Both the position numbers and the translations under genes were made by a program. A stretch of DNA of 64,000 nt from a virus: IMG/VR virus record IMGVR_UViG_3300025120_014919, positions 41,614-105,613 of that record, one strand, 5' to 3'. A model generated the notes under the pieces. That model was not told the DNA's origin. It made no database searches and worked only from the letters and a program-made list of their open reading frames with translations. This document shows, piece after piece, positions 10,369 through 34,431 of this stretch (positions are counted from its first letter, which is position 1; each line of letters starts with the position of its first letter).

Positions 10369-11400
10369 GTGATAGTTATACCAGAGCAATACGTTGTAAA
10401 CGTTTTATATGAGAATATCTATAAGATCTCATATAATAAATACAATAAATCGTATAACGGTTGTTGCCCTATTTGTAAAGAAGGTAACTCGTGGGGTAAG
10501 AAAAAACGATTCTATTATATACCTGATAAAGAGTTAGCATATTGTCATAACTGCGGATATAGTAAAAAGGCTCTTACATTTATAACTGAAGTAACTAATA
10601 AATCTTTACATCAAATTATAAATGAAGTTAAAGAGTTTGATGTAGAGATTTTACCTATAGAAGAACCAATAGAAGTAAAAAAGGTAATAGATAAAAGTCT
10701 TCCGGAAGATTGTATTAACTTATCTGATATAAGTCAAATAGAGTACTATAAAGATAATGCAGTTGTAAAAACAGCTTTACAATTAATTAAAGATAGAAAA
10801 CTTGATAAAGGTATTAATAAACCTAAAACGTTTTATATATCACTAAAAGATGTAGTGCATAAAAATAGATTAATATTACCGTTTTACGATGAAAATGATG
10901 ATATAATATTTTATCAATCTAGAGGATTAACTAAAAAGGATCTATTTGAAAGACCGAAATACCTTAGTAAGGTAGGAGCAGAGAGAAGCTTATACGGTAT
11001 GCAAAATATAAATTCTAATTTAGATAACGTGTTTATATTTGAAGGTCCGATTGATAGTTATTTTGTTGAAAACGGTTTAGCTACTTGTGGTATTACCGAA
11101 AGAAGTGATAAGATGTTTACTTCTCTACAGAAGGAGCAGATCAATAAACTAAACTTATATGAAAAAATTTATGTGTTAGATAATCAGTACTGCGATAAAG
11201 CAGCTTTAAGTAAAAGTATTATATTGGCTGATAATAATGAAAAGGTTTTTATATGGCCTAAAGAATTAAAACGCTTTAAAGACTTTAATGATATATGCGT
11301 GGCTGGTAATAAAGACAAAATAAAACCTGAATTTATATTAAAAAATACTCATTCAGGTCTTAAAGCTAAATTATTATTAACTGAGATTAAAAATAGTTAG
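10369..11400 (+). CDS. gp61: DNA primase, T4 gp61/DnaG-like
   Basis: Makes RNA primers for lagging-strand synthesis in complex with gp41. An N-terminal zinc ribbon is visible (CCPIC near residue 30, CHNCG near 60), followed by a Toprim-like core with IFEGPIDSYF (catalytic Glu) near residue 223 and a YVLDNQYCDK acidic motif near 264. Length 343 aa, matching T4 gp61 (342). Start is GTG, chosen because the -10 hexamer ends 6 nt before it. The stop is interlocked with the stop of the convergent gene (TTAG). Confidence 0.92.
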   Translation: MIVIPEQYVVNVLYENIYKISYNKYNKSYNGCCPICKEGNSWGKKKRFYYIPDKELAYCHNCGYSKKALTFITEVTNKSLHQIINEVKEFDVEILPIEEPIEVKKVIDKSLPEDCINLSDISQIEYYKDNAVVKTALQLIKDRKLDKGINKPKTFYISLKDVVHKNRLILPFYDENDDIIFYQSRGLTKKDLFERPKYLSKVGAERSLYGMQNINSNLDNVFIFEGPIDSYFVENGLATCGITERSDKMFTSLQKEQINKLNLYEKIYVLDNQYCDKAALSKSIILADNNEKVFIWPKELKRFKDFNDICVAGNKDKIKPEFILKNTHSGLKAKLLLTEIKNS

Positions 11401-11945
11401 TTACGTTTATATTGACCAAGATCACGGTAACCCATTTGATCTTGCAAAAATCCTTTTAATATCTCAAATTCTTCTCCACTTAGATTAACTAAGTATTCTA
11501 ACTCAATATCTCCAATAGAATCAGCGAACTTTTCAGCCTTATCTTCAAAATTAGAAGAATCGCCTACTGATTCATCTTCTTCATTACTTTTTCTAACGTA
11601 TTCATCTTCATCATCATCATAATCCCAATCATTGGCATCAAAATTTTTAAAGTTTTGTACCATTTCATACTCTTCAGGAGATAAAATAGACAATTCTTCA
11701 AGAGATGTATTATCTAAGTTATCTTCTTCCATTTCACCGTGAGTCTTATTAGATTGAGCACTTGGAGGTCGAGTTTTTCTATATCTACCACCTGAACCAT
11801 CTCTTGCAGCGTCCACATTACTTGGAGCACCACCACGTGACATATCATATGATTTACCTTTTGGAGCTTTAGAAGTGCCAGCTTCCCAATCTTCAGTTAA
11901 AGTTTGTGTATAAGCTTCGAAAATTAAATTTTGATCTGTATTCAT
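11397..11945 (-). CDS. Acidic late protein with capsid-targeting-like N-terminus
   Basis: A 182 aa acidic protein on the reverse strand. The N-terminus NLIFEAYTQTLTEDW matches a motif shared by several small late proteins here and resembles the T4 capsid-targeting sequence, which is cut by prohead protease after (I/L)xE. The middle is low-complexity (Gly/Arg/Ser, then Asp/Glu), and two C-terminal segments repeat a pattern (SILSPEEYEMVQNF and NLSGEEFEILKGF). Function unknown; a packaged internal head protein or core protein is inferred. A weak TTTAAATA box lies 3 nt before the ATG. Confidence 0.7.
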   Translation of the reverse strand: MNTDQNLIFEAYTQTLTEDWEAGTSKAPKGKSYDMSRGGAPSNVDAARDGSGGRYRKTRPPSAQSNKTHGEMEEDNLDNTSLEELSILSPEEYEMVQNFKNFDANDWDYDDDEDEYVRKSNEEDESVGDSSNFEDKAEKFADSIGDIELEYLVNLSGEEFEILKGFLQDQMGYRDLGQYKRN

Positions 11946-11960: not shown

Positions 11961-12377
11961 TTAGTTAAACTTATATTTAGGATCATTAGCACCTGCTAAA
12001 TAACCTTTTAAGATTTCACTAAGTGAAGAAACTTCCATCGCAACTCTAGCAATCTTCTTTGTTTCGGCATTTGAAATACTATCAAAAATTGTATCTCCTT
12101 CAGCTGAATTAAGCGAAGTTTGGATACTATCTGAAGTACCATTCAAGTAATCAGAAAATTCATCCATTTTTTGGATCCAACTATTTAACTCCTCGAACAT
12201 TTGTTTTGATTGAGAGCTTATTGGGCTATCTCCTTCAGGTACATCGACATCAAACTCATCAATCGATGTGTCGGGATCTAATGTAGAAGCCATTGCTTCT
12301 TGATCAGTTAATTCATCAGTATTTTCATCATCTTGCTCTCTTAAAAACTTAGAGAATCTTTTTTGGTATAAGCTCAT
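11961..12377 (-). CDS. Late hypothetical protein with capsid-targeting-like N-terminus
   Basis: A 138 aa acidic, helical protein from the ATG at 12377. A longer in-frame ATG at 12422 would run through the promoter, so the shorter start is chosen: a TATAAATA box ends exactly 5 nt upstream. The N-terminus LYQKRFSKFLREQDDEN looks like an amphipathic capsid-targeting helix followed by a protease-type LRE site. Later, an IQKMDEFSDYLNGT segment and a C-terminal helical pair follow. Not otherwise recognised. Upstream partner of the 11397 gene on the same strand. Confidence 0.65.
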   Translation of the reverse strand: MSLYQKRFSKFLREQDDENTDELTDQEAMASTLDPDTSIDEFDVDVPEGDSPISSQSKQMFEELNSWIQKMDEFSDYLNGTSDSIQTSLNSAEGDTIFDSISNAETKKIARVAMEVSSLSEILKGYLAGANDPKYKFN

Positions 12378-12382
12378 ACAAT

Positions 12383-12394
12383 TATTTATAAATA
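12383..12394. promoter_or_regulatory. Palindromic bidirectional late promoter
   Basis: The 12-bp perfect palindrome TATTTATAAATA contains a TATAAATA box on each strand, overlapping by 4 bp (12387-12394 on plus, 12383-12390 on minus). Each box ends 5 nt before the ATG it faces (12400 rightward, 12377 leftward). The two start codons are only 22 nt apart. Confidence 0.75.
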
Positions 12395-13769: not shown

Positions 13770-13947
13770 TAATAGTACAATGAAAAATACAAAACTCTTT
13801 AAACCAGGAGTTTTGTATATACTAAAAAACATTAATAAAACTGAAGAAGGCTATACATATACCTTTACAGTTAATGGTGAGTCTAAAGACATTAAGTTCA
13901 ATAGTGTACAGCAAGCTGATGAGTGGTTGAATACTATTATTTTTTAA
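13741..13947 (+). CDS. Very small hypothetical protein (start uncertain)
   Basis: A 68 aa protein if the ATG at 13741 is used, or 55 aa from ATG 13780; a still earlier ATG at 13705 lies deep inside the preceding gene. Sequence LFKPGVLYILKNINKTEEGYTYTFTVNGE suggests a small beta-rich domain. Its TAA stop is interlocked with that of convergent gp14 (TTAA at 13944-13947). Not recognised. Confidence 0.5.
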   Translation: MKFIPGAKFSNSTMKNTKLFKPGVLYILKNINKTEEGYTYTFTVNGESKDIKFNSVQQADEWLNTIIF

Positions 13948-14747
13948 TAATAATCACCATATACATCAGTATTGTTCTGAGACATATCAAATATATCATT
14001 TTTACTAACGTTATCTACATTGTAATCGTCGTACCCTGGCTTCTTAGTTTGTGATTCTGGGTTTGTACCTCCGCTTAATCTACCACTAAATGAATCTTCA
14101 AATACTTGATTATTACCTGAAATACCTTCAAACCTATTACTTGCGTTTTTATTATTGAAAGGTATATTAGGTTCGAAACTATAATCTAGACGTTTAGCTT
14201 TTAATAAAAATACGTAATGACCTCCTAATTGATTCATTGCTAATATATCTTGATCTAATTTTTGTGTAATTTCAAAATATTTACCTTGTCTATCATTCGG
14301 TCTATCGTTACCATATTCACTTAATTGGAATATATCACCTGCTTTAGGCTCAACTATACTGTATTGATTTTCAAAGGCACCACTTAAAGTAAAAAAGGTA
14401 TCGAAAAAACTAGATATATGAATATATGCAGTAATTTCATCATCACTTTCAAAACCATATTGTGAAAGAGTAATTGCATTTTCATTTAAGGTTGCTGCTA
14501 AAATTAATTTTCTAGGCTCAGCAAATACTTTATTAGGGTCTTCACCGTAAAAATTATCTGCACTTAATACGTTATATGTATTGACGAAATAATCTACCTT
14601 TGTACCATATAAATTAATTTGTTCTCTCCACCAATTACTAAACAAAGTTCTTTCATTTTCCTGAATAGATTTATCAGAAAATCTGAAACAAGTTTCATCG
14701 GTTTGTACTAAACCTGGGAAATCACAATTATAATCTGGTTGGCTCAT
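13944..14747 (-). CDS. gp14: Neck protein, T4 gp14-like
   Basis: Head-completion/neck protein placed between portal and tail. 267 aa against 256 in T4. The order of conserved segments matches T4 gp14: YFVNTYNVLSADNFYGEDPNKVF (here about residues 53-75; T4 has YYVPREYV..LIFGED), ITAYIHISSFF, EPKAGDIFQLSEYG and YFEITQKL...NQLGG. The C-terminal third is polar and variable. It starts inside the stop of the preceding reverse-strand gene and so depends on its late promoter. gp13 is not seen in the window. Confidence 0.85.
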   Translation of the reverse strand: MSQPDYNCDFPGLVQTDETCFRFSDKSIQENERTLFSNWWREQINLYGTKVDYFVNTYNVLSADNFYGEDPNKVFAEPRKLILAATLNENAITLSQYGFESDDEITAYIHISSFFDTFFTLSGAFENQYSIVEPKAGDIFQLSEYGNDRPNDRQGKYFEITQKLDQDILAMNQLGGHYVFLLKAKRLDYSFEPNIPFNNKNASNRFEGISGNNQVFEDSFSGRLSGGTNPESQTKKPGYDDYNVDNVSKNDIFDMSQNNTDVYGDYY

Positions 14748-15073
14748 CTTTCAATTACAAATTTATTTAAGTTAGAATCAAAATACAATTTAATACCAGT
14801 ACTACCTAATTTTTTAACTTCACCTTTATAGGGTATTACCTTATACTGGCTTTTTATATAATCTAAATCAACAGGAAAGCATACTTTCTTACCATGACCG
14901 TCTCTTAATTGTTCAATTTTTTGATTTTTAGATGGATCAGTTTTTAAGTAATCAGCCATTATGTTACCTTTTTTACGACTATTACTATTTGGTATAACTT
15001 TTCTATGCCAGTGTTCAACCCCTGGTTTAGGCTTCTGATATTTATTCTCAAAAAACTTATCAAATCTTAACAT
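14744..15073 (-). CDS. Small basic late protein upstream of gp14
   Basis: A 109 aa basic protein (many Lys and Arg), unrecognised. The N-terminus MLRFDKFFENKYQ is a weak match to the capsid-targeting-like pattern; the C-terminal half (LDYIKSQYKVIPYKGEVKKLGS) looks beta-rich. It starts 5 nt after a CATAAATA late box and overlaps gp14 by 4 nt, suggesting a head or neck-related role. Confidence 0.6.
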   Translation of the reverse strand: MLRFDKFFENKYQKPKPGVEHWHRKVIPNSNSRKKGNIMADYLKTDPSKNQKIEQLRDGHGKKVCFPVDLDYIKSQYKVIPYKGEVKKLGSTGIKLYFDSNLNKFVIER

Positions 15074-15137: not shown

Positions 15138-15653
15138 TTATTCGAAGAAATCTTGTCCGGTATGTAACCCAACTTTATTATTTTTACCTTGTAAATGAGC
15201 TTTCTTATCTCCTAATTCCTTAGGTTCTGCTTCAACATACTTTTTAGTTGAATCAGATGCTTTATTACCTTTTGCTTTAATTGAACCTACTTTATTATTC
15301 TTTGACATTAATGATTGACCTGCAGAACTTGGAACTTCTTTCATCTCAACTGCTTCTTGATGAGTATCGTCTTCCTCTTCTTCTGTATCTTCTTCTGCCT
15401 CTTCCATTTCCATTGAATAATCTTCATCAGCATCTGCTTCTTCACTATCATCATCTTCATCTCCCATTGCTGCTTGCAACATGTCGCAAAGTGACTTAGC
15501 CATATCACGATCAATCGTGATTGTAACTTCGTCTGATTCGGTTTCACCCACTTCGGTATCGATACCGAGTGCGTCCAATTCTTGTTCTTGGTCTGAGTGA
15601 CCCATTTCTTCACCCATCACATTTTCAAATAATTTATCAAAAGTAGATTTCAT
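15138..15653 (-). CDS. Nested in-frame short form of the acidic head-core-like protein
   Basis: In-frame ATG at 15653 preceded by TATAAATA with exactly 5 nt between, the standard late-gene start unit of this genome. The product is 171 aa and begins MKSTFDKLFENVMGEE, very like a T4 capsid-targeting sequence (short amphipathic helix ending in a protease-type Glu). I infer two products from one frame. Alternatively the 16010 start adds a separate leader domain that is rarely made. Confidence 0.6.
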   Translation of the reverse strand: MKSTFDKLFENVMGEEMGHSDQEQELDALGIDTEVGETESDEVTITIDRDMAKSLCDMLQAAMGDEDDDSEEADADEDYSMEMEEAEEDTEEEEDDTHQEAVEMKEVPSSAGQSLMSKNNKVGSIKAKGNKASDSTKKYVEAEPKELGDKKAHLQGKNNKVGLHTGQDFFE

Positions 15654-16010
15654 AAAAATATTTATACTCTCTTTTACTTTTTTCTCGATTTTTTTATCTT
15701 TTTTATCCTTTTTATTATAATTTTCTGCAGAATACTTATCACTATCATATAATTCGTCTTCCTTCTTGCTATGTTTAGGATCTATAGGTTTATTTAAACC
15801 ATCAATTTCATAAACCGGTTCCGTGGTTCTTGGTCCTTTAGAATGCTGTTTATTTTTAGATTTATTAGAGTTTAAATCAACAGCACCGGGTCCTGGTTTC
15901 ATTCCCATATTTTTAGTACCACCTTCAATAGGTCTACCTGCTTTACCTTCGCTGATAATATTATTATTATATGTATCCCATATTTCGGTTAGAGTATTTG
16001 CTCTTGTCAT
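15138..16010 (-). CDS. Late acidic head-core-like protein, long form
   Basis: A 290 aa protein with an N-terminal TLTEIWDTYNNNIISEGKAG segment similar to the capsid-targeting-like motif, then a Lys/Gly-rich linker, then a second such motif (STFDKLFENVMGEE) at about residue 121, a very acidic region (residues about 190-225) and a basic C-terminus. This alternation of targeting motif and acidic low-complexity resembles prohead core or internal proteins. TATAAATA lies 5 nt before ATG 16010. A second complete start unit inside the gene gives a 171 aa short form. Confidence 0.7.
   Translation of the reverse strand: MTRANTLTEIWDTYNNNIISEGKAGRPIEGGTKNMGMKPGPGAVDLNSNKSKNKQHSKGPRTTEPVYEIDGLNKPIDPKHSKKEDELYDSDKYSAENYNKKDKKDKKIEKKVKESINIFMKSTFDKLFENVMGEEMGHSDQEQELDALGIDTEVGETESDEVTITIDRDMAKSLCDMLQAAMGDEDDDSEEADADEDYSMEMEEAEEDTEEEEDDTHQEAVEMKEVPSSAGQSLMSKNNKVGSIKAKGNKASDSTKKYVEAEPKELGDKKAHLQGKNNKVGLHTGQDFFE
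15659..15666 (-). promoter_or_regulatory. Internal late promoter box
   Basis: TATAAATA on the reverse strand inside the 15138-16010 gene, 5 nt (TTTTT) before the in-frame ATG at 15653. Confidence 0.6.
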
Positions 16011-16015
16011 TTAAA

Positions 16016-16023
16016 TATTTATA
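16016..16023 (-). promoter_or_regulatory. Late promoter box of the 15138-16010 gene, overlapping a divergent box for gp17
   Basis: Reverse-strand TATAAATA ends 5 nt before ATG 16010. On the plus strand TTTAAATA (16010-16017) overlaps it by 2 bp and lies 11 nt before the gp17 ATG; it may serve gp17, with a predicted leader of about 6 nt. Confidence 0.65.
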
Positions 16024-18317: not shown

Positions 18318-21300
18318 ATGGCACGTACAATACAATCTCCCGGAGTAGAAATAAAAGAAATTGATTTAAGTTTGAGAGCAAACTTACCAATAGGTACTAA
18401 TATTTTAGTACCAGGGTTTGCTGATGAAGGACCAACAGATCAAATTATTCAAGTTACATCAAGAAGTGAGTTTGAAACTATTTTTGGTCTACCTAAGACA
18501 CCAGCTGAAAGATATTTTTACCATACAGTTACACCATTATTTGATTCACCAGCAAAGGTAAGCGTATATAGATTACCTTATGGTTCTAATAAAGGTGAAG
18601 GCTTTTCTTCAAACTATAGTGCATTAGCATATCCTGCTAAAGGTATTAGTATTAGTACAGAAGGAGCTGGTGCATCAGCAAAAGCTTCAGTTCATGAAGT
18701 TGCATTACAGACAAGAACATCTGATAATACATATTTTGGAGCTGCATCAGCTAGTTTAAGTGCATTCCAAGTTACGACACCTGATGGTACAGTTGCAGAA
18801 GCACCAGCATTAACACTTAACGATCCGTCAAACAAATTTGTATTTAGACAATATGATGGTTCAAATGCAGGTATAACAGTTACTGGTGGTTCTAATGCAA
18901 TACCATTTGGTTTTACAACAGCCCTTTCAGGTGGTACTGATTTTACAACCAATGTAAAGTATTTCTCAGGTGGGTTTGATAAAGCATCAGGATTTCCTCT
19001 AGATACAGCTGAGGAAGTGACCTTAGACTTTTATAGAAACACAGTATTACCTACAGTTTCAGGTGCAGTAGTAGCATTTACAGCATCAGGATCAGTATCA
19101 GGTAGTAATAAAGCACCATTCGTACAAGTTACTGCAGCAGATGGTGATAATTTAAGTCTTTTCTATACCGCTGCATCTTCGGTTAAGACTAAAGTATTAG
19201 GAGGAGTTACCCAAACAGTAACTCGTACAAATGGTTACCCTGACGGAGGCGCTGGTTTCTTTGGTAATACAGTTAATCTTGATTTTAATGAAAATAGCGA
19301 AATACAAGGTTCAAATTATGGTCAAGGTTTAACCACATATAATGAGCAAGCTTCAGGTAACTTGTTTGTTCTAGGTAAGCCAATACATTTCCAACTTACT
19401 GAAGACCAATACAACAATATCCTACAAAAGAAGACATTTGATTGGGAAAATAGTATTGCAACATCTGCTACTTTAAGTAGTTTTGGTGAATTAGGTAAAT
19501 CAGCAATGATTGTTCTAAATAAAGGTCAAACATCAATTGATGATAAGTTCCAAGGTTTTTATGTTGGTGCTCTTGATAATACAAATCTTAACCCAGCGAC
19601 TAATTTTGATGGATTATTAACTGTTGAATCAGTAGCTCAATCAGCTAATATAACATCCACATATACCACACTACCAGTACAAAGACTTGATTTCTCATTA
19701 TCTTCGATATCTGATAATAATACCGATACATTCGGTCAAGTTACTGATAGTCTTTCAGAAATAATGGAGAATGTGCAGTCATTTGATATATCTGATAAAG
19801 AATTCGATGATACGATTTCAGTAGGATTGTTTAGATTAAATCGTTCTAATTACTCACCAGACACCATTAAGTTAGCAGCTGGTTTAGGTGAAAAATATGT
19901 AGGTACATTCGATTATCATCGTCAAGTTAATAATCCTAATGGAGGTACACCAGAAAGCTTCTCATTGGAAACAAAAGAAGATGGTTCACCTAATGTTCAA
20001 ATTATTGTTAATGAGTTCTTAAGTCATAAAGATGGTAGTTCATATTTAGATATTAACGGTAATCCGACAACTAAGATAAGATTAGGTTCATCTAAGATTG
20101 ATAGTAATGCATCTTCATTTGCAGATAGAATAACTTATTTCCAACAATTATCTACAGAATATGGAGCTACGACTCGTACGCAAGCAACAATTCTATCAGG
20201 AGCGGTTGAATCAGCAGTTACAAGTGATATATTCCCAGCAGATTCGTTGTTTCCTTTAGGTAGCTACCAAAATAGTAGTAATGCTAAAGTTAAGAATTTA
20301 GGGTCTATACCTAAGAAGTTGAATAGATTAACTGATCTAGCAGAAGATCGCGATTTATTTGATATCGATCTTACAGTAGATGGTGGTTTAACTACTATTA
20401 ATGCAGTTTCTGAATACTTAGAACGAGGTGGTAAAGGTAAATACTTTGATGATACGGTATCGGTTTCAGCTATTGAAGGTTTTTATGAATCAAATATATT
20501 AGATATATCACCTGAAGCAGTAGCATTTAGAAGCGACTGGAAGACAGTATTTGATGTATTTGCTAATTTTGCAGAATTCCGCAGAAAAGATCATATGTTT
20601 ATTGCTGACTTACCGAGACATATATTCGTTCAAGGTAAAAACTTTAAGACATTAAATGATGATACTAAGAGCTTTTCATTTAACTTGATGAACCCACTAC
20701 GAGCAATGGTATCAGTAGTCAATACAAGTTACGCAGCAACGTATGCTAATTGGGCTCAAGTTTATGACCCAGTTTTAGATGACCAAGTTTGGGCACCAAT
20801 CTCAGGCAATATAGCGAAAACGATGGCTAATTCGGATAGTAATTTCCAACCATGGTTTGCACCAGCTGGATTCACTAGAGGTATTATTACCGGGGTTAAT
20901 GACTTGGCACTATATCCAAAGCAGTCACAGAGAGATCAATTATACAATCGTTCAATTAATCCTATAGCATTCTTTCCGAATGAAGGTTTTGTAACATTTG
21001 GTCAAAAGACATTGCTTAAGAAGCCAAGTGCTTTCGATAGAATTAATGTAAGAAGACTATTCTTAAATCTAGAAAAAGCAACTAGACGTACAGTTAAGTT
21101 CTTCGTATTTGATCCGAATACGTTAGTTACCAGAACAAGGTTAACAAATGTAATTCAACCTATATTTGAGAATGCTAAAAATACTGAAGGCTTATATGAT
21201 TTCTTAATTGTATGTGATGAAAGAAATAATACACCAGAAGTAATCGATCAAAATGAGTTAAAGGTAGATATATACCTGAAACCAGTAAGAGCAGCAGAAT

Positions 21301-21359
21301 TTATATTAGTTAATTTCTTTGCTACCAGAACTGGTGTTGATTTCAACGAACTTATTTAA
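18318..21359 (+). CDS. gp18: Tail sheath protein, T4 gp18
   Basis: Contractile sheath subunit. The N-terminal part starts RTIQSPGVEIKEIDLS, the usual opening of sheath proteins, and the C-terminal 300 residues hold the conserved polymerisation core (SVVNTSYAATYANWAQVYDP, PWFAPAGFTRGII, RSINPIAFFPNEGF, NVRRLFLNLEKATRR). At 1013 aa it is much larger than T4 gp18 (659); the extra length lies in the middle (about 100-650), Ser/Gly/Thr-rich and probably surface-exposed domains. Own late promoter, and a strong terminator follows. Confidence 0.96.
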   Translation: MARTIQSPGVEIKEIDLSLRANLPIGTNILVPGFADEGPTDQIIQVTSRSEFETIFGLPKTPAERYFYHTVTPLFDSPAKVSVYRLPYGSNKGEGFSSNYSALAYPAKGISISTEGAGASAKASVHEVALQTRTSDNTYFGAASASLSAFQVTTPDGTVAEAPALTLNDPSNKFVFRQYDGSNAGITVTGGSNAIPFGFTTALSGGTDFTTNVKYFSGGFDKASGFPLDTAEEVTLDFYRNTVLPTVSGAVVAFTASGSVSGSNKAPFVQVTAADGDNLSLFYTAASSVKTKVLGGVTQTVTRTNGYPDGGAGFFGNTVNLDFNENSEIQGSNYGQGLTTYNEQASGNLFVLGKPIHFQLTEDQYNNILQKKTFDWENSIATSATLSSFGELGKSAMIVLNKGQTSIDDKFQGFYVGALDNTNLNPATNFDGLLTVESVAQSANITSTYTTLPVQRLDFSLSSISDNNTDTFGQVTDSLSEIMENVQSFDISDKEFDDTISVGLFRLNRSNYSPDTIKLAAGLGEKYVGTFDYHRQVNNPNGGTPESFSLETKEDGSPNVQIIVNEFLSHKDGSSYLDINGNPTTKIRLGSSKIDSNASSFADRITYFQQLSTEYGATTRTQATILSGAVESAVTSDIFPADSLFPLGSYQNSSNAKVKNLGSIPKKLNRLTDLAEDRDLFDIDLTVDGGLTTINAVSEYLERGGKGKYFDDTVSVSAIEGFYESNILDISPEAVAFRSDWKTVFDVFANFAEFRRKDHMFIADLPRHIFVQGKNFKTLNDDTKSFSFNLMNPLRAMVSVVNTSYAATYANWAQVYDPVLDDQVWAPISGNIAKTMANSDSNFQPWFAPAGFTRGIITGVNDLALYPKQSQRDQLYNRSINPIAFFPNEGFVTFGQKTLLKKPSAFDRINVRRLFLNLEKATRRTVKFFVFDPNTLVTRTRLTNVIQPIFENAKNTEGLYDFLIVCDERNNTPEVIDQNELKVDIYLKPVRAAEFILVNFFATRTGVDFNELI

Positions 21360-34110: not shown

Positions 34111-34431
34111 CTATGCAATTGGTTTACCAATTATTTTTTCCATGGCTTGTTTTTGACCCATTTCTTCGTCACTAATCTTCATTTTACCAGCTTTTTTCAT
34201 TGCAGCGTCGCCAAGATCTTTAAGCTGTTCAGCTGTAAGGTAATTTAAAGCATCAAATAATTTTTCTAGAGTCATTCCAGTACCTTTTACCACAGCGCCG
34301 GTTGCTGCTAACCCAACTTTACCAGCAGTGCGACCTGTTAATTTAGCAGCTCCTTTGGCAAAGTCACCAAAACTCTCCTCATGTACCTGGGTATATGCTT
34401 CTTCTAATAATTTTGTATCGTTATTTTTCAT
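34111..34431 (-). CDS. Small late protein with capsid-targeting-like N-terminus
   Basis: 106 aa. The N-terminus KLLEEAYTQVHEESFGDF is the clearest example of the motif family with the 11397 gene (FEAYTQTLTE). A Gly/Ala-rich, weakly hydrophobic region follows (GKVGLAATGAVVKGTG), then a basic C-terminal helix region. Second gene of a reverse operon with 34436; 4 nt gap. Unknown function; packaged protein inferred. Confidence 0.65.
   Translation of the reverse strand: MKNNDTKLLEEAYTQVHEESFGDFAKGAAKLTGRTAGKVGLAATGAVVKGTGMTLEKLFDALNYLTAEQLKDLGDAAMKKAGKMKISDEEMGQKQAMEKIIGKPIA

Follow-up and report, generated by a model that had tools for sequence, protein, structure and literature searches.

Two predicted late promoters and two in-frame starts within one gene of an aquatic T4-like phage

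Can a single reading frame of a T4-like phage carry two late promoters and yield two proteins that differ only at their N-termini? The question is raised by a 290-codon gene on the minus strand of a 64,000-nucleotide stretch of DNA (the window; positions given without a contig name refer to it). The window belongs to G000, a 105.6-kb uncultured viral contig whose source is an aquatic T4-like phage. G000 carries T4-like terminase, sheath, tail tube and primase genes, with distant sheath and terminase matches in Pelagibacter, Sinorhizobium, Pseudoalteromonas and cyanobacterial phages, and the gene studied here is directly divergent from the large terminase gene. A homologue of the late sigma factor gp55 is also encoded (PHROG 234, E = 2.2e-29, L023:7500-7973). 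Full T4 late transcription requires gp33 and gp45; the one gp45-like candidate ORF in G000 gave no match.

Two starts in one frame and the spacing of late boxes

The original prediction placed a late box 5 nt ahead of an in-frame ATG at 15653, inside the 290-codon gene, and gave the long form a late box of its own. Both are exactly as described (Table 1): TATAAATA runs from 16023 to 16016 on the minus strand and is followed by 5 nt and ATG 16010, and the internal copy stands at the same distance from ATG 15653, whose product begins MKSTFDKLFENVMGEE. The T4-type late octamer, as TATAAATA or a close variant, is thus found at both starts, and the internal promoter and start are in frame with the longer frame left intact.

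Table 1. Features of the nested gene and its two predicted products (window positions)
Feature	Position	Strand	Description
Long form	15138..16010	-	290-codon ORF from ATG 16010; 32.4 kDa, pI 4.6; homologues in IMG/VR contigs
Short form, same frame	15138..15653	-	171 codons from Met120 (ATG 15653); 19.0 kDa, pI 4.2
T4-type late promoter octamer of the long form, TATAAATA	16016..16023	-	5 nt before ATG 16010
Internal late promoter octamer, TATAAATA	15659..15666	-	codons 115-118; 5 nt before ATG 15653
Leader of the long form, MTRANTLTEIWDTYNNNIISEG	15945..16010	-	codons 1-22; predicted helix, conserved [ILV]-x-E end
Linker, long form only	15654..15944	-	variable in sequence and length, frame always kept
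Leader of the short form, MKSTFDKLFE	15624..15653	-	residues 1-10; candidate capsid-targeting peptide, L-x-E end
Acidic segment common to both forms	15336..15458	-	residues 185-225, 61% D/E, net charge -24

The octamer TATAAATA alone is not enriched in the window, with 16 copies observed and about 31 expected from shuffles. Its distance from the start codon follows a rule: TATAAATA-N5-ATG occurs at 9 sites and the reversed pattern at 0. Across the contig TAAATA-N5-ATG occurs at 30 sites, compared to 1-11 sites at each other gap from 0 to 15, and to 4 sites for the reversed pattern and 3 for an 8-nt gap used as controls. ORFs of at least 60 aa are opened by 29 of these 30 sites, and 26 of the 125 gene starts in G000 have TAAATA exactly 5 nt ahead of the ATG (examples in the window are 12377, 12400, 18318, 38620 and 49963). 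Of the 30 sites, 15653 alone is embedded far within a longer ORF of the same frame. The rule is strong in the related contig G001 (54 sites, control 4) and moderate in the Pelagibacter phage HTVC008M (14 sites, control 4), where the sites coincide with annotated starts of late genes for head closure, tail tube cap, baseplate wedge, tape measure and DNA end protector proteins; it is absent from a cyanophage (1 site) and from phiM9 (0 sites).

The T4 late consensus spans -13 to about -6, with A(-13) as a common variant (PMC2988020). A box in this position combined with a 5-nt gap would place the transcript start at the A of the ATG, and we predict from this geometry that the late messages of this phage group, including the internal one, are leaderless. 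T4's own boxes lie mostly much further upstream, ahead of AGGAG-like ribosome sites. The spacing rule suggests that late mRNAs are largely leaderless in these phages, with the cultured HTVC008M showing the same spacing at annotated late genes, and it offers a simple means of finding late genes and correcting start codons in these genomes.

The reading that we consider very probable, because all relatives that allowed a check retain the arrangement, is that two promoters drive two proteins from one frame with a shared tail. In the late phase of infection, RNA polymerase carrying the phage sigma factor gp55 would initiate at both boxes. The upstream box would yield the mRNA for the 290-residue protein, and the internal box an mRNA that begins with the A of ATG 15653 and is read as a leaderless message into the 171-residue protein. 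The two forms would have the same acidic, largely disordered body and basic C-terminus and would differ in the leader helix. The transcript starts, the leaderless translation and the existence of both proteins are inferred.

Two other ways of using the internal site were weighed against this one, and we hold each to be very improbable. The short protein could come mainly from internal ribosome entry on the long mRNA, the box giving merely a late boost, as T4 gene 21' is recorded as a case of internal translation initiation. However, it is the A/T-rich box itself that precedes ATG 15653; the closest stretch of purines, AAAAGAGAG, stops some 14 nt short of the ATG, which is too far and makes a usual Shine-Dalgarno site unlikely. 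Alternatively, the internal promoter could be real but serve the minus-strand genes 14744-15073 and 13944-14747, with no protein made from 15653. These genes do lie downstream of the nested gene on the same strand; however, the former is preceded by a box of its own, CATAAATA, which stands 5 nt ahead of the ATG at 15073, and this explanation leaves the exact 5-nt gap to an invariant in-frame ATG unaccounted for.

Several further sites in these genomes bear on box placement. Two small genes with ATGs at 12377 (minus strand) and 12400 (plus strand) in the window each have a late box at 5 nt, and these two divergent boxes overlap at 12383-12394, with TATAAATA on both strands; the same arrangement occurs in G001. 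In two relatives (L180 5700, which is G001 19699, and L182 7168, which is G005 99167) the major capsid gene gp23 is preceded by a ribosome site of the AAGGA type and lacks a late box at the 5-nt distance, in contrast to many other late genes, which have one there. Within gp23 of G001 an in-frame TTAAATA-N5-ATG occurs at codon 48 (19840), which we take as a probable chance occurrence.

Conservation of the internal box and of both N-termini

A single genome would be unconvincing: when the same protein was recoded synonymously, TATAAATA-N5-ATG arose in about 22% of the recodings. We therefore turn to relatives, collected by IMG/VR searches that were independent of the box and used the whole protein, the short form or the N-terminal part alone. 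In all 53 distinct contexts obtained in this way, exactly 5 nt separate [T/A/C]ATAAATA from the internal ATG, which is in frame, and the upstream frame is open. The first base of the internal box is T in 41, A in 8 and C in 4 of these contexts, parallel to the variation at -13 in T4. With box-conditioned searches added, TAAATA stands at 5 nt in 65 of 65 contexts, and the upstream frame is open for at least 60 codons in each. The query made of the N-terminal domain is blind to the internal start, and the internal start was found at every locus spanning the place. Even the most divergent relatives (L089 and L259-L262), which have a different long leader, retain the same internal start.

Codon changes were then counted on a tree built without the region of the internal box. 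The box codons 116, 117 and 118 show 0 synonymous changes, whereas most neighboring codons of invariant residues show 2-12. A few other codons (K110, E129, Y14 and E219) also have 0-1 changes, so the argument rests on codons 116, 117 and 118 taken together. The amino acid at codon 118 varies (N, I or S) while its first base is always A, and at codon 115 the residue can be S, D, G, A, N, L or I, with a third base that is mostly T. The retention of the box in 53 of 53 contexts, together with the lack of synonymous change at its three codons, excludes chance. Since the box codons lack synonymous changes, and codons 115 and 118 exchange residues yet keep the bases of the box, these comparisons indicate that selection acts on the DNA as well as on the protein.

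The same data bear on the reading in which the long protein is the sole product, MKSTFDKLFE forms a helix within it that may hold a protease site between two domains, and TATAAATA is a by-product of encoding S-I-N-N. The Ile-Asn pair within the box is invariant as protein, AlphaFold predicts one continuous helix over residues 95-136, and with the codon usage of this genome the box is a fairly likely way of encoding S-I-N (the 22% given above). Against this, the box bases stay where residues 115 and 118 vary freely, synonymous changes are missing at the box codons, and the 5-nt gap to an invariant ATG is the genome-wide promoter rule. We regard production of the long protein alone as improbable.

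The long form is conserved as well. Its box at the 5-nt gap is kept in nearly all relatives and its residues 1-21 are conserved in the alignment, while the short-form N-terminus, MKSxFDKLFExV, is invariant among relatives. The two leaders are conserved islands separated by a linker of variable length: among 47 sequences there are 15 different distances from start to start, between 91 and 120 codons, and all of them keep the frame. Because the N-terminus is conserved and the linker changes length without breaking the frame, the alignments indicate that the long form is maintained and is also under selection. Conservation of both starts in related genomes, named as a check in the original prediction, is thus what the comparison returned, and this comparative evidence lends strong support to the idea of two late promoters and two N-termini in a single frame.

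An origin from separate upstream and downstream genes was also considered, and in none of the relatives found by searches from either half does a stop codon separate the two starts. Three queries against about 50,000 records of cultured or named phages gave no homologue; there is no confirmed homologue in bacterial or archaeal genome contigs, and no match to the nested-gene protein in Pfam or PHROG.

Leaders, protein body and a possible role in the head

The two N-termini had been expected to carry similar motifs. They are instead of different types, LTEIWDTY...[ILV]xE in the long form and MKSTFDKLFE in the short form. Both types recur on other genes of the genome (MTFDKLYY, MLRFDKFFEN, LIFEAY and LIFEQY), and a late box often accompanies them. 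Small proteins with the N-termini LIFEAY, LIFEQY or LLEEAY are found at 11397-11945 and 34111-34431 in the window and at L022 18340, and could belong to a common family of head-targeting leaders. A common acidic tail had also been proposed. An acidic stretch is indeed shared by both forms; its position is not that of a tail, as it lies in the middle of the protein and is followed by a basic C-terminus with a recurring NNKVG motif. The AlphaFold model of the protein is poor (pLDDT 50) and mostly disordered, with a low-confidence helix at residues 7-23 of the long form.

The suggestion that the leaders target the capsid is weakly supported. MKSTFDKLFE resembles MKTYQEFIAE of T4 IPII and IPIII in its length, its N-terminal position, its MK start and its [IL]-x-E end, a likeness too short for a significant score. 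The T4 prohead protease cleaves after sites of this kind (ITE and LTE in Alt; PMC5694885), and a gp21-type prohead protease is encoded in the close relative G001, which has both gp21 and gp23. The likeliest single role would be that of a prohead-core or internal head protein supplied as two forms, and from the sequence features we judge a head-targeting or head-core function of the nested protein to be close to an even prospect. More speculatively, each form would be anchored in the assembling core by its leader, which the gp21-type protease would then remove by cutting after [IL]-x-E.

Almost as plausible, if still short of an even chance, is that both forms are made and the protein does not belong to the head, being a chaperone, for instance, or an acidic host-takeover protein that mimics DNA. 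In its favor, the protein has no homology to any head protein in Pfam or PHROG, and its gene lies about 100 kb from gp21-gp22-gp23 in G001. It is opposed by the late promoter and the divergent large terminase gene, by the recurrence of the leaders on other genes with late boxes and by the [IL]-x-E end like that of IPII and IPIII. Returning to a role in the head, the fullest version of the proposal, in which much late expression in this group of aquatic T4-like phages is leaderless and the two promoters of one gene serve to load two isoforms of an acidic core protein, with different docking leaders, into the head, is offered tentatively.

Known nested genes and the annotation of late genes

Nested in-frame products as such are already known, since T4 genes 17 and 21 and the Shigella gene virF give shorter in-frame products. 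The T4 records describe 17' as "internal transcription and in-frame translation" and 21' as internal translation initiation; 17'A, 17'B, 17'' and 21' are, like the predicted short form here, shorter proteins from an internal in-frame start of a late gene. T4 49' is also a nested in-frame product. The case presented here differs from 17' and 21' in that the protein is unrelated, a full-consensus internal box stands at a fixed 5 nt and is conserved across a large group, the message is predicted to be leaderless, and each form has its own conserved leader. In virF, a promoter within the gene drives a leaderless mRNA for the shorter in-frame protein VirF21 (PMC5101355). The nested phage gene would share the internal promoter, the leaderless message and the shorter in-frame product; however, virF is a bacterial regulator transcribed by the host, and its sequence and role are unrelated. 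What appears to be new is the protein family itself, a consensus promoter that is strictly and widely conserved within a gene, the geometry expected of a leaderless message and the two conserved alternative leaders.

Among T4 head proteins, IPII and IPIII have a leader of about 10 residues with an MK start and an [IL]-x-E end (PMC9958956); past this short pattern there is no homology, and the nested protein is otherwise acidic and disordered, with two alternative leaders. The prohead core proteins gp67 and gp68 are likewise small, and gp67 has a strongly acidic tail, whereas the acidic segment of the nested protein continues into a basic C-terminus. No homology to gp67 or gp68 was detected with Pfam or PHROG, and the gene lies outside the 20-67-68-21-22-23 cluster, its homologue in G001 being about 100 kb from gp21-gp23.

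Standard annotation allows one start per frame, and promoter pipelines drop promoters that are not intergenic. The study of the methylophage Melnitz left out non-intergenic promoters, and in pelagimyophages the prediction of late promoters was unsuccessful (PMC9004378, PMC7029224). A protein conserved over a large group of aquatic phages has therefore probably gone unannotated.

Two further observations concern other genes of the contig. The tail sheath protein at 18318-21359 is unusually long (1013 aa), with only about its last third matching the sheaths in phage records. Outside the window, at G000 1-1983 (L022), are curlin-repeat, CsgG and CsgF genes, and a late box precedes the starts of the curlin-repeat gene and of CsgF by 5 nt; CsgG and CsgF have been reported for pelagimyophages and the methylophage Melnitz as well.
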